From: Hippea alviniae EP5-r
GTDB taxonomy: Bacteria; Campylobacterota_A; Desulfurellia; Desulfurellales; Hippeaceae
Assembly (NCBI RefSeq): GCF_000420385.1
Contig: NZ_ATUV01000001.1
Coordinates: forward strand, 186,001-250,000
Length of the DNA: 64,000 bases
Reading direction: 5' to 3'
The position numbers and the translations under genes are program-made. Below, in pieces: positions 8,224-22,680 of the stretch. Below the pieces are notes generated by a model. That model did not search any database. It was given only the letters and a program-made list of their open reading frames with translations, and was not told where the DNA came from. Every line of letters begins with the position of its first letter. The first letter of the stretch is position 1.

Positions 8224-8970
8224 GTGCGCAAGTTATTCTTTGGGGTTTTTGTGTTTCTATTTGTTTTTAGTTTTGAGGGTTTTTCCTGCACGCTTTACTG
8301 GTTTACTGGTGCCGGCATCAAAAAGCCTGCTGAAAGGATTGCAAAAATGTTTGAAAAAACTCATCACTGCAAGGTTGCTATTATAACTGGCGGTTCTGGT
8401 CAAGTATTAAACGAGATGCTTCAAACTAAAAAGGGAGCTATATATACTCTTGTTGATGCACTGTTTCTAAAAAAAGCTATAAAACATAAAATCGTTTTAA
8501 AATATGATAAAATCCTTAAACTCACACCTATTTTTCTTATATCTAAAAGTGCAGAAAGTAAAATAAGGACGATTAATGACCTTGCCAAAGCAGGTGTTAG
8601 AATAGCAGGCGGTGATACAAGGGCTATGTGTCTTGGCGAGACATTCAGAGAAATAATGAATAAGCTTCCAAAAGAGTTGAGGGAAAAAATTGAGAAAAAT
8701 ATAGTTGTTAGATGCTTGAATGTCTTTCAAATAGTAGGGTATGTGAAAAGCGGCGTTGTTGATGCTGGTATTGTTCTTGATAAGGCTCTTGTAAGAGACA
8801 CGAATCTCAAGTGGATAGATATACCGGAAAAGTGCAATGTTCATAGGTATGGTTATGTTGCTTTAATAAGGTATTCAAACTCAGAAAAAGCCAAAGAGTT
8901 GTATAATTTTATACTTAAGCATCTTAATGTTTATAGAGAGTATGGATTTGAACTTATAAAGCCCCGCTGA
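8224..8970 (+). CDS. periplasmic molybdate/tungstate-type substrate-binding protein
   Basis: Extracytoplasmic solute-binding protein of 248 residues, ModA/WtpA-like. A signal peptide covers about residues 1-21 (a hydrophobic core, then FEGFSC). The mature start LYWFTGAGIKKPAERIAKMF and the GGSGQVLNEM turn are typical of proteins that bind molybdate, tungstate or similar oxyanions. The GTG start is fixed by AGGAGG 7 bases upstream. No permease or ATPase gene is adjacent, so it must work with a transporter encoded elsewhere. The upstream Moco-type riboswitch supports an oxyanion destined for molybdopterin cofactors. The stop codon lies inside the loop of the terminator hairpin. ModA proteins are usually ~20 residues longer. 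Confidence 0.82.
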   Translation: MRKLFFGVFVFLFVFSFEGFSCTLYWFTGAGIKKPAERIAKMFEKTHHCKVAIITGGSGQVLNEMLQTKKGAIYTLVDALFLKKAIKHKIVLKYDKILKLTPIFLISKSAESKIRTINDLAKAGVRIAGGDTRAMCLGETFREIMNKLPKELREKIEKNIVVRCLNVFQIVGYVKSGVVDAGIVLDKALVRDTNLKWIDIPEKCNVHRYGYVALIRYSNSEKAKELYNFILKHLNVYREYGFELIKPR

Positions 8971-18569: not shown

Positions 18570-19303
18570 AAAGGAATAGAGCCGTATATATACTGCCCAA
18601 TATGTTTACGACGATAAATTTGGCAGCAGGGTTTTACAGCATTCTACTTGCGTTTTCGTCTAAATTTTTGGCTGCTGCATGGGTTATCCTGCTTGCCGTT
18701 GTTTTTGATAACCTTGATGGTAAAGTTGCAAGATTGACACATACAGAGAGTGAATTTGGAGTTGAGTACGATTCGTTAAGCGATTTGGTCAGCTTTGGCG
18801 TTGCACCTGCGTTTTTAATGTATTCTTTTGTTTTAAAGGATTTTGGAAGACTTGGCATAATTGCAGCGTTTCTTTTTTTGATATGTGGTGCATTAAGGCT
18901 TGCACGCTTCAATGTTCAGACGACCCACAGGGATAATTTTGTAGGATTGCCGATACCTGGAGCTGCTGCTGTTGTTGCGTCGTTTATACTCGTTTTCTTT
19001 AAATTTGATATAGATTCGCACAAATACAACTTAATCTTTCTTGTAAGTATGTATCTGCTTGCATTTTTAATGATAAGCTCAATCAAATACAGAAGCTTCA
19101 AAAAAGCAAGCACAAGCAAGAAGATTTCAATAAGAGTTTTTGCTTTTATAGTTCTTGTTTTATCGTTGATTGTGTTTAAGCCTTACATATTTGTGCCGCT
19201 ATTGGCATTTATCTATGTATTATCAGGTCCTTCTGAGTATATATATAGAGTTTTTAAACCAAAAAGGGGGGTGGCTTATGGGCAGGAAAATAATAATATT
19301 TGA
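18566..19303 (+). CDS. pssA: CDP-diacylglycerol-serine O-phosphatidyltransferase
   Basis: Integral membrane CDP-alcohol phosphotransferase of 245 residues that supplies phosphatidylserine to Psd. The family signature D-x2-DG-x2-AR-x8-G-x3-D-x3-D is visible from FDNLDGKVARL through GVEYDSLSDLV (residues ~48-73). About seven hydrophobic helices follow. Starts at the ATGA overlap with psd; its last 26 bases contain the leuA start. Confidence 0.95.
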
Positions 19304-20795
19304 CACAACTTTAAGAGATGGAGAGCAATCGCCTGGTGCAAGCATGAATGTTCATGAGAAGATAGCAGTCGCAAAGCAGCTTGAAAAACTCGGAGTTGAT
19401 GTAATTGAAGCAGGTTTTGCAGCGGCAAGTCCAGGTGATTTGGAAGCGATAAAGGAAATTTCAAAAAATGTTGAAAAGCCAATAATAGCTTCTTTGGCAA
19501 GGGCTGTAAGAAAGGATATAGAAGCAGCGGCAGAAGCTTTAAAAGATGCAAAGAGAAAAAGAATACACACATTTATAGCAACGAGTCCAATCCATGTTGA
19601 AAAGAAATTAAGTATGAGTTATGAAGCTGTCAAAGAAGCCGCCGTTGAAGCTGTTAAGTATGCACGAAACTTCTGCGATGATGTTGAGTTCTCAGCTGAA
19701 GATGCAACAAGAAGCGATTGGGATTATTTATGCGAGATATTTGAAGAGACGATTAAGGCTGGAGCAACAACCATTAATATACCTGACACTGTGGGATATA
19801 CAACGCCGCAGGAGTATTATGAGCTTGTTAAATACATATTGAATAAAGTGCCAAATATAGATAAAGTGGTTGTCAGTGTTCACTGTCATGACGATTTAGG
19901 TATGGCCGTTGCAAACTCTTTGAGTGCTGTATTGGCTGGTGCTAATCAGGTTGAATGCACGATAAACGGCATAGGTGAAAGGGCAGGTAATGCCGCATTG
20001 GAAGAGATAGTTATGGCTTTAAAGGTTAGAGCTGATTTTTATAAAGACTGTTATACAGATGTGAACACAAAGGAGATTTATGCAACAAGCAGGCTTGTTA
20101 GCAGGCTTACAGGTATAAAGGTTCCAAGAAACAAGGCAATTGTTGGACTAAACGCATTTGCTCATGAAGCTGGCATACACCAAGATGGAGTAATAAAAGA
20201 GAAAAGCACTTACGAGATTATGAAGCCAGAAGATGTTGGCATAGAAATGAGTAAACTTGTTCTCGGTAAGCACTCAGGCAGACATGGTCTCGAGGAGAGA
20301 CTTAAAGAACTTGGTTATACTCTTACAAAGGAGCAGTTGGAGATAATTTTTGAAGAGTTTAAGAAACTTGCAGACAAGAAGAAAGAGATTTATGATGAGG
20401 ATTTAAGGGCATTAATTGAAGAGAAGTTCAAACTCACACCACAGGTTTATGAGCTTGTATCCTTGCAGGTTGTGGCGGGTAGTGCAGCAAGCCCAACAGC
20501 AACAATCAAGCTTGTTAAGAATGGTGAAGAGTTTGAAGATGCGGCTATGGGCGATGGTCCTGTTGATGCAACATTCAAAGCCCTTGAGAGAATCACATAT
20601 GTTAAAGGCAAGCTAAAGAGCTATGATATACAAGCCTTAACCGAAGGTAAAGATGCAATTGGTGAAGTTGTAGTCAAGGTGTTCTTCCCGGATATAAACG
20701 ACACTATCACAGGCAGAGGAACATCAACAGACATCATTGAAGCATCTGCCAAGGCTTATTTGGATGCTATAAATAAAGCGTTAATGAAGATGTAG
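19278..20795 (+). CDS. leuA: 2-isopropylmalate synthase
   Basis: Condenses acetyl-CoA with 2-oxoisovalerate, the first leucine-specific step. About 505 residues: TIM-barrel catalytic domain with FDTTLRDGEQSPGASM at the start, SVHCHDDLGMAVANSL with the metal-binding His pair and GERAGNAALEE, then the C-terminal regulatory domain with GDGPVDATFKALER. The ATG at 19278 follows GGGGGGTGG and the protein then begins at the usual place. The frame is open further upstream inside pssA, but that part is pssA sequence. It uses 2-oxoisovalerate from the ilv genes of the same run. Confidence 0.96.
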   Translation: MGRKIIIFDTTLRDGEQSPGASMNVHEKIAVAKQLEKLGVDVIEAGFAAASPGDLEAIKEISKNVEKPIIASLARAVRKDIEAAAEALKDAKRKRIHTFIATSPIHVEKKLSMSYEAVKEAAVEAVKYARNFCDDVEFSAEDATRSDWDYLCEIFEETIKAGATTINIPDTVGYTTPQEYYELVKYILNKVPNIDKVVVSVHCHDDLGMAVANSLSAVLAGANQVECTINGIGERAGNAALEEIVMALKVRADFYKDCYTDVNTKEIYATSRLVSRLTGIKVPRNKAIVGLNAFAHEAGIHQDGVIKEKSTYEIMKPEDVGIEMSKLVLGKHSGRHGLEERLKELGYTLTKEQLEIIFEEFKKLADKKKEIYDEDLRALIEEKFKLTPQVYELVSLQVVAGSAASPTATIKLVKNGEEFEDAAMGDGPVDATFKALERITYVKGKLKSYDIQALTEGKDAIGEVVVKVFFPDINDTITGRGTSTDIIEASAKAYLDAINKALMKM

Positions 20796-20797
20796 AG

Positions 20798-20950
20798 ATG
20801 GAAGATAAAAGAATTAGCTGTGCTGTTTGTGCGTGGCGTGCAACATGCAAAAAGAGATATATGCATGGTGATAGTTTTGCACTCCATTGCCCTGACTTTA
20901 CATTTGATTTGAGTTTGAAGAAAAAGGAGAGTAAAGAGAAAAAAAGATGA
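20798..20950 (+). CDS. small Cys-rich protein (50 aa)
   Basis: A 50-residue open frame in the leuA-diadenylate cyclase gap. It begins 2 bases after the leuA stop and ends in an ATGA overlap with the next gene. Four Cys residues are arranged as C-x2-C-x5-C and, 16 residues on, CPDF: SCAVCAWRATCKKRY, then HCPDFTFDLSL, and a lysine-rich tail. The spacing suggests a small metal- or cluster-binding knuckle. I do not recognise a named family, although similar small CxxC proteins occur in related lineages. Tight coupling to the cyclase gene hints at a shared role. Confidence 0.7.
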   Translation: MEDKRISCAVCAWRATCKKRYMHGDSFALHCPDFTFDLSLKKKESKEKKR

Positions 20951-21837
20951 TAACACTTCAGGCGAGCAAGATAATTCTATCCAAGGCACTTGAGATAGCA
21001 AAAGAGTCAGAAAACGCCACGGTGATGGCTTATTATAGCGATATATCGTCGTATTTGAAGGAAGAAGATGGACTGTTTTCTGATAACGGTGTGAAGAAAA
21101 TAATTGTAATGAAGGAAGATGAGTTTGAAGAGAATGAAGAAGAGATAGAGTCCTTAAAATCAATTGGAGAGATAGTTAAGGTTCCTTCAATCAAGTTTGA
21201 TAGGATTAACAAGATAAAGGTTGCTTTAATGATTTGCACATCGTCTGGGATTCTTTCAAAAGACGATGATGTTATAGCTTTGAGCGGCTCTATGAATCAG
21301 GTTGATACGCTTCTGTTTATCGATATATCGAAGGAGAAAGAGCTTTTAAGCTTTAAGGGTGATATAGACCTTGAAAAGTCGGTTAAGCCAGAAGTGTTTG
21401 AGAAGGTTTTAAGGATTGCACTTGAACTTGCCAATCAGGGAAGGGAAGGCAAAAGCGTAGGTGCTATCTTTGTGTTGGGCGATAAGGAGAAGGTGCTTGA
21501 GAATATCAAGCAGATGATATTTAACCCATTCAAAGGCTATGCACCAGATGAGAGAAATATTCTAAAATCAAACCTTGACGATACGTTGAAGGAGTATAGT
21601 TTACTTGATGGTGCTATTGTGATAGACTGCAATGGTGTCATAGAGACAGCAGGAGCATATATCTCTGTCTCTGCTGCCGTTGAAGATTTACCTAAAGGGC
21701 TTGGTGCTCGTCATATAGCAGCAGCATCGATAACGGCAGTGACAAACGCCATAAGTATTGTAGTTTCAGAATCGACGGGAGATGTTACGATTTTCAAGAA
21801 TGGCTCGATTATTACAAGGATTGAGAAGGTGAGCTAA
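20947..21837 (+). CDS. diadenylate cyclase (DacZ/DisA_N-type)
   Basis: Probable c-di-AMP synthase of 296 residues. The N-terminal ~110 residues resemble the pyruvate-kinase C-terminal-like domain of archaeal DacZ (NATVMAYYSD; KVALMICTSSG). The C-terminal DAC domain carries the DGA motif (LLDGAIVIDCNGV, ~220) and a changed RHR motif, GARHIAAASITAVTNA (~252), then VVSESTGDVTIF. Archaeal DacZ proteins also vary at the third position of RHR, so activity is plausible. It overlaps the Cys-rich gene by 4 bp and abuts folD (stop and start adjacent). No transmembrane helix, unlike CdaA. Confidence 0.82.
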   Translation: MITLQASKIILSKALEIAKESENATVMAYYSDISSYLKEEDGLFSDNGVKKIIVMKEDEFEENEEEIESLKSIGEIVKVPSIKFDRINKIKVALMICTSSGILSKDDDVIALSGSMNQVDTLLFIDISKEKELLSFKGDIDLEKSVKPEVFEKVLRIALELANQGREGKSVGAIFVLGDKEKVLENIKQMIFNPFKGYAPDERNILKSNLDDTLKEYSLLDGAIVIDCNGVIETAGAYISVSAAVEDLPKGLGARHIAAASITAVTNAISIVVSESTGDVTIFKNGSIITRIEKVS

Positions 21838-22680
21838 ATGGTTATATTAGACGGCAAGGCGTTATCTGTTAAAATAAAGTCTCAGATAAAAGAAGAAGTA
21901 AGGGTTCTAAAGGAGAAGGGCATAACGCCCGGTCTTGCTTTTATTCTTGTGGGTGATAATCCAGCAAGTCAGGTTTATGTTAATATGAAAACCAAAGCCT
22001 GTGAGGAGGTGGGAATATACTCCATAAACCACAGAATGCCCAAAGAGACAACAGAGAAGGAACTTATCGAAGTAATCAAAATGTTAAACGACAACCCGAT
22101 GGTGCACGGCATCTTGGTGCAACTGCCACTGCCTAAGCATATATCCGAAGAGAGAATTATTGAAGCCATTGATTACAAAAAGGATGTTGACGGATTTCAT
22201 CCTTACAATATGGGCAGATTGGCAAGGGGCAACCCTTTGTTCAGCTCCTGCACGCCGTTTGGCATAATGAAGCTGTTTGAAGAGTATGCTATAGATGTTA
22301 AAGGGAAAGATGTTGTTATGGTAGGAGCTGGGAACATAACGGGTAAGCCCATGTCTTTAATGCTTTTAAATGCAGGTGCGACTGTTCAGGTCTGTCACAT
22401 TTACACTCAAGATTTGAAAGAGAAGACAAAAAGAGCGGATATTCTGATTTCGGCAGTTGGCAAACCAAAGCTTATTACAGAAGATATGGTAAAAGAAGGA
22501 GCGATAGTAGTTGATGTTGGCATAAGCAGGGTTGATAATAAGGTTGTAGGAGATGTGGATTTTGAGAATGTCTCAAAAAAGGTTTCATACATTACGCCTG
22601 TTCCCGGCGGTGTTGGTCCTATGACCATTGCCATGCTGCTTTACAATACCCTGCTTTCTGTAAAGATTAGAGAAGTCTGA
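21838..22680 (+). CDS. folD: methylenetetrahydrofolate dehydrogenase/cyclohydrolase
   Basis: Bifunctional C1-folate enzyme of 280 residues interconverting methylene-, methenyl- and formyl-THF with NADP. Visible motifs are GDNPASQVYVNMKTKACEE with the catalytic Lys, VHGILVQLPLPKH, DVDGFHPYNMGRL, the dinucleotide loop VGAGNITGKPMSLML and TPVPGGVGPMTIAML at the C-terminus. It starts directly after the cyclase stop codon. Confidence 0.97.
   Translation: MVILDGKALSVKIKSQIKEEVRVLKEKGITPGLAFILVGDNPASQVYVNMKTKACEEVGIYSINHRMPKETTEKELIEVIKMLNDNPMVHGILVQLPLPKHISEERIIEAIDYKKDVDGFHPYNMGRLARGNPLFSSCTPFGIMKLFEEYAIDVKGKDVVMVGAGNITGKPMSLMLLNAGATVQVCHIYTQDLKEKTKRADILISAVGKPKLITEDMVKEGAIVVDVGISRVDNKVVGDVDFENVSKKVSYITPVPGGVGPMTIAMLLYNTLLSVKIREV

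Follow-up and report, generated by a model that had tools for sequence, protein, structure and literature searches.

The locus lies in the window, that is, the whole stretch of 64,000 nucleotides of the Hippea alviniae EP5-r genome that was analysed, and belongs to a gene run in which leuA, folD, psd, pssA, rimP and nusA were identified by NCBIfam matches. Between leuA and a gene for a diadenylate cyclase (DAC) of the DacZ family, a small open reading frame (ORF) occupies the gap, starting after 2 bases of spacing from the end of leuA and sharing the bases ATGA with the start of the cyclase gene (Table 1). An earlier note on this DNA had described such a tiny gene, filling the leuA-cyclase gap and overlapping the cyclase by ATGA, and had read a C-x2-C-x5-C...CPD pattern in its product; the coordinates of both genes agree with this description, and the cysteines of the small protein (C8, C11, C17 and C31) are spaced in the same way, C-x2-C-x5-C-x13-C-P-D.

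Table 1. Coordinates (window positions) of the features in and around the small four-cysteine gene
Feature	Position	Strand	Basis
leuA, 2-isopropylmalate synthase	19278..20795	+	TIGR00973, 752 bits; adjoins the small gene in 25/25 class loci
Small four-cysteine protein gene	20798..20950	+	ATG start, 50 aa; 25/25 class genomes, 43/290 genomes, core pN/pS 0.188
Conserved core, C8-x2-C11-A-W-R-x2-C17-x13-C31-P-D-F-x3-D37	20819..20908	+	Alignment of 48 members
Variable Lys/Glu-rich tail of the small protein, codons with purine-rich region	20909..20950	+	AAGGAG/AAAGAG-type stretches upstream of the DAC start
ATGA, small-gene stop and DAC start	20947..20950	+	Open DAC frame begins within the small ORF, 22/22 class loci
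Diadenylate cyclase, DacZ-family, 296 aa	20947..21837	+	PF02457, 82 bits (cut-off 27)
Cyclase aa 17-133, probable N-terminal sensor domain DacZ_P	20995..21345	+	PF21755, E 0.0026, below the family cut-off
DAC catalytic domain of the cyclase, aa 162-287	21430..21807	+	DGA 21607-21615; R-H-I 21709-21717
folD	21838..22680	+	NCBIfam; 3' of DAC in 20/22 DAC-bearing class loci

The small ORF is, judging by its conservation, a genuine gene that evolves under purifying selection. A search with the window protein detected it in 30 of 61 genomes, one of which (G049) was rejected because the match, L031, is a frame antisense to a GC-rich gene, and a profile built from 40 members extended the search to 290 genomes. 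The earlier note had named the lack of a homologue in any relative as an outcome that would count against its reading; homologues were found in 43 of these genomes, including every one of the 25 that belong to the same class as the window genome (Desulfurellia, hereafter the class). In the alignment of 48 members, the four cysteines and D37 are invariant, A12, W13 and R14 are at least 90% conserved, and the pooled pN/pS given in Table 1 comes from 30 codons of the core compared between the window copy and 12 relatives, comparisons that all share the window sequence and are therefore non-independent. A chance ORF is ruled out by this conservation together with the pN/pS. The named records that contain the gene come from Desulfurellales, Nitrospirota (Nitrospirae), Nitrospinota and Deferribacterota genome bins.

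By its sequence pattern, the small protein is a member of an unnamed family of proteins of about 45-80 aa with the signature C-x2-C-A-W-R-x2-C-x10-15-C; the window protein fits C-x2-C-A-W-R-x2-C ... C with the following D and is a founding row of the alignment. The window protein has no match in Pfam, and the 40 members yield only weak, single-member Pfam matches (best E 0.018); there is no family for the small protein in NCBIfam or PADLOC, a profile search of the PDB sequences gave chance-level matches (best E 0.55), and a plasmid search with the small protein gave no match. At the level of literature listings, nothing relevant to the small protein was found under DacZ neighbourhoods, argS-SPOR, Hippea c-di-AMP, THEP1 fusions or CAWRATC. 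An AlphaFold model computed from 48 sequences has low confidence scores (mean pLDDT 55.8, pTM 0.20) and is uninformative on the fold.

The make-up of the core suggests that the small protein probably binds metal, and the site would most likely hold a [4Fe-4S] cluster (the alternative being zinc), because the three-cysteine part matches the Fe-S motif of Cas4. The small protein and the Cas4/AddB motif (PF01930 family) share C-x2-C-[AS]-[aromatic or His]-x3-C and a total of four cysteines, and the corresponding pattern, C..C[AS][WYFH]...C, is shared by all 12 Cas4 loci retrieved from this genome set and occurs in 0 of 744 other ORFs of at least 100 aa in the window and 38 loci (746 ORFs were scanned, both matches being read-through frames of the small gene). 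As described in those parts of PMC3466216 that deal with the cluster, Cas4 holds it by four cysteines, a C-terminal triad and an N-terminal Cys, and zinc replaces the cluster in a related nuclease. The geometry of the small protein differs from that of Cas4 in that the fourth cysteine is located 10-15 residues downstream of the triad rather than far upstream, and the protein itself, unlike Cas4 and AddB, is a stand-alone polypeptide of about 50 aa that lacks a nuclease domain and has no significant Pfam or PDB match; at the sequence level, this is a likeness of motif, not membership. Small stand-alone zinc-ribbon and zinc-knuckle proteins show a two-knuckle CxxC...CxxC pattern. The small protein resembles these in size and in its four-cysteine composition but departs from them in the cysteine spacing (x2, x5 and x10-15) and in the lack of a Pfam zinc-ribbon match for the window protein.

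The neighbouring cyclase, the sole PF02457 match in the window genome, is predicted from its domains to make c-di-AMP and to belong to the DacZ family, a known kind of enzyme with its own sensor-type domain. The DGA motif is present in 21 of the 22 class DACs (the exception, in L013, reads DGC) and G-x-R-H-[IML] in all 22, and 8 of 15 class cyclases match the DacZ_P domain with an E of at most 0.01 (best E 2.1e-10). The window cyclase can be aligned over its full length with two annotated haloarchaeal dacZ products at 29-32% identity and scores 133.7 bits against NF041371, the haloarchaeal DacZ equivalog, the cut-off of which, 430, is not reached; by these measures, it is related to the haloarchaeal DacZ and is not the haloarchaeal equivalog. 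In those parts of PMC6741144 that concern these enzymes, DacZ and CdaZ make up one family with a pyruvate-kinase-C-like N-domain and some bacterial members, and the window cyclase conforms to this type in having a C-terminal DAC, a DacZ_P-type N-domain and the same PKGLG-x-RH context as the two haloarchaeal products. The differences are that the class cyclases are bacterial and have RH[IML] in place of the RHH of the two haloarchaeal copies and the RHR of the solved CdaA chains, and that the gene 3' of the window DAC is folD, whereas the haloarchaeal dacZ operons have mscS2 as the next gene, according to the portion of the same source that describes them.

The search for riboswitches found none of the c-di-AMP type in the window or in the rest of the genome, which has a single DAC gene and no c-di-AMP riboswitch. 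Elsewhere in the window, a molybdenum/tungsten cofactor riboswitch (RF01055, 8039-8158 on the + strand, 82.8 bits) is located about 65 bases 5' of an ORF (8224-8970) that, by eye, has the look of a periplasmic molybdate/tungstate-type binding protein.

Within the class, the gene order around the small gene is nearly uniform. A DAC lies directly 3' of the small gene in 22 of the 25 class loci, that is, in all DAC-bearing class genomes, which span three families (f1, f2 and f3), and the two DAC-bearing loci for which folD is not counted end before the folD position. The other three class genomes (G020, G022 and G024, from one family, 87-94% complete) keep leuA next to the small gene and have zero PF02457 matches genome-wide; in G024, a HAD hydrolase takes the place of the DAC 3' of the small gene. 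At the chosen starts, the small gene and the DAC overlap by 4 bases in the window and by 14-47 bases in 19 other loci. The DACs of L010 and L017 (1622-2521 in each) lack an ATG, GTG or TTG codon where the start would be expected and possibly use a rarer start codon or start further in; for these two, the overlap is not pinned down.

The small gene and the DAC are probably translationally coupled, to judge from the arrangement of the two frames, because the open frame of the DAC begins within the small gene, purine-rich stretches are found in the tail codons, and the + strand has no predicted terminator-like site from leuA to the DAC; the tail codons would hold the stretch at which ribosomes bind for DAC translation. 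Within the window, an overlap such as ATGA is commonplace: exactly 4 bases are shared by 10 of the 42 same-strand neighbour pairs, psd and pssA of the same gene run also have a 4-base overlap, and 30 of the 42 pairs overlap or lie no more than 5 bases apart, a spacing measured from the nearest possible start, which favours closeness.

Outside the class, the small gene was not found next to a DAC in any of the sets searched. With seven CdaA-type DACs and that of the window as tblastn queries and flanks of 0.4 to about 6 kb, no DAC was detected within the flank in any of the three sets, outside-class genomes (0 of 18), genome_contigs loci (0 of 18) and Nitrospirota-type loci (0 of 33); the sets overlap in species (in the latter two, for example, L045 and L132 have the same protein), so that these counts are not summed, and the locus counts leave out L031 as well as second copies (L001, L018, L020, L021, L025-L027, L032-L034, L053-L079, L130, L135 and L137). 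A DAC is present in 15 of the 18 outside-class genomes, and in 12 the distance from the small gene exceeds 130 kb or the two lie on separate contigs, the remaining three not being included in the distance count. Across the 290 genomes, 37 of the 259 that have a DAC carry the small gene, as do 6 of the 31 without one (Fisher p 0.43, uncorrected for kinship). Six genomes, namely, the three class members without a cyclase, G087, G213 and G228, have the gene without a PF02457 match, which rules out the small protein as an obligate DAC partner; in G213 and G228, this absence is inferred from the table of matches, where the absent numbers correspond to exactly 11 unlisted misses.

These observations bear directly on the central proposal of the earlier note, namely, that the small protein is a redox or metal sensor partner for c-di-AMP synthesis, a search for the motif upstream of DAC genes in other genomes being suggested as a check and homologues unlinked to DAC genes being regarded as evidence against it. 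What survives of this proposal is a real gene with a metal-type motif that keeps its place upstream of the DAC, and its overlap with it, in all DAC-bearing class genomes; what finds no support is the dedicated partnership, given that the homologues examined outside the class are not linked with DAC genes. The small protein is probably not a dedicated partner of c-di-AMP synthesis because DAC linkage is lacking outside one class and because members of that class keep the gene without the cyclase.

The neighbours of the small gene differ from one lineage to another. In 8 of the 18 outside-class genomes (loci L113, L117, L118, L121, L122, L125, L126 and L127), argS, detected by tblastn with a Pfam-verified argS copy, is directly 3' of the small gene, and ispF is 5' of it in 2 of the 18; a gene for a SPOR-domain protein follows argS in several of these loci and is directly 3' of the small gene in L120. 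No argS was found beside the small gene in the 25 class loci, the 18 genome_contigs loci or the 33 Nitrospirota-type loci. In the phylum taken as Nitrospirota, on the ground that the small protein of L132 is the same as that of L045, a Nitrospirae record, the small gene is present in 39 of 118 genomes. Here, another kind of neighbour appears, a nuclease-fold gene that encodes a protein of about 280 aa without a Pfam family (u280) and precedes the small gene in 14 of the 18 genome_contigs loci. The structure predicted for u280 is confident (mean pLDDT 87) and similar to Can2/Card1/VC1899 (Foldseek best E 4.5e-7, TM about 0.5), and the protein (L049:5120-5974 together with 11 relatives) has no conserved cysteines and contains an invariant GGDYD...E-x-K, a PD-(D/E)XK-type signature. 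Of the 118 genomes, 24 have u280 and 16 have both genes. As a constant partner, u280 was rejected because none of the 25 class genomes has the gene and because, in G037 and G055, it occurs in the absence of the small gene.

In the same phylum, the small module is also found fused to an enzyme. In the Nitrospirota-type families f215 and f216, it forms the N-terminus of a THEP1-type NTPase (PF03266, NF010248), and a degenerate copy occupies this position in f221; the window genome differs from these in that its small module stands alone. The fusion loci are L151 (1501-2166), L143, L154, L155, L159, L161, L162 and L165, along with the degenerate L163 (f221), which has 24% identity to the NTPase and a changed P-loop. 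A relative of the NTPase was recognized by tblastn in 9 of 9 fusion loci, and PF03266 matched in 3 of 3 tested (E 3.4e-46 or better). A 248-aa frame in L134 was considered and is not a fusion. THEP1 was likewise rejected as a constant partner: the window genome has no PF03266 match and, in the class, strong full-length matches are confined to family f3.

With a probability of about 0.6, the small protein is an independent member of its unnamed family, with a single four-cysteine metal site and a general role that does not depend on c-di-AMP, and its adjacency to the DAC reflects the operon order of the class. Under this reading, the small gene would lie beside the cyclase because, in the class, the run leuA-small-dacZ-folD-rimP-nusA is a compact operon whose consecutive genes overlap or nearly touch and are probably coupled in translation; in other lineages, the operon context of the module is different, with a position before argS, one after u280 or fusion with the NTPase. 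Against the general role stand the failure to find a single constant partner of the small gene, from which a reaction could be named, and the constancy of the leuA-small-DAC order in the DAC-bearing class genomes, which would be expected of a specific link as well. Metal binding, the preference for Fe-S over zinc, translational coupling and the general role are all inferred here.

That constancy, with the overlap that accompanies it, is the principal argument for a partnership restricted to the class, whereby the module would have been recruited to DacZ, would bind it co-translationally and would make c-di-AMP synthesis dependent on iron or redox state. The fusion with a THEP1-type NTPase in Nitrospirota, which indicates that the module can serve a nucleotide-handling enzyme, points in the same direction. 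We nevertheless consider such a partnership unlikely: three class genomes retain the small gene in the absence of any DAC, the other lineages examined show no DAC linkage, leuA is a more constant neighbour than the DAC, the DAC already has a sensor-type N-domain of its own, and overlaps are ordinary in the window.

The argS context invites a different interpretation, under which the small protein would be a zinc knuckle that binds nucleic acid close to tRNA charging or processing. Apart from argS itself, hisS is seen by eye 5' of the small gene in one outside-class genome and mnmA or tilS 3' of it in others, the operon in the window runs on into rimP and nusA, and the core of the small protein has a mean net charge of about +2. 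The tail, however, conserved neither in length nor in charge (net charge from -6 to +5), provides no conserved basic extension, argS is missing beside the small gene in the class and in both other locus sets, the argS context may itself be a lineage-specific operon order, and many of the neighbours are not translation genes; a role of this type thus appears quite improbable.

More doubtful still is the possibility that the module is a detached Fe-S 'staple' hooked onto different nucleotide-handling enzymes depending on the phylum, by fusion to the NTPase, by placement beside u280 and by overlap with DacZ, in the last case rendering c-di-AMP synthesis responsive to iron or redox state. We know of no earlier case of Fe-S control of c-di-AMP synthesis, and this one, if true, would be the first. 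Finally, the notion that the small ORF mainly brings ribosomes to the DAC start, the peptide being incidental, is consistent with the DAC frame opening inside it, the purine-rich tail codons and the absence of a predicted + strand terminator between leuA and the DAC, but is very improbable and largely refuted for the core, which is conserved where no DAC follows and is under purifying selection, such that a coupling role may be left to the tail only.

The analysis delineates a family of small proteins that is represented in several phyla and is not covered by the copies of Pfam, NCBIfam and PDB that were searched. An appealing but largely lineage-bound inference on c-di-AMP sensing is removed, and what remains of it is narrowed to one bacterial class. 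The fusion with the THEP1-type NTPase offers a Rosetta-stone route to the role of this small family.
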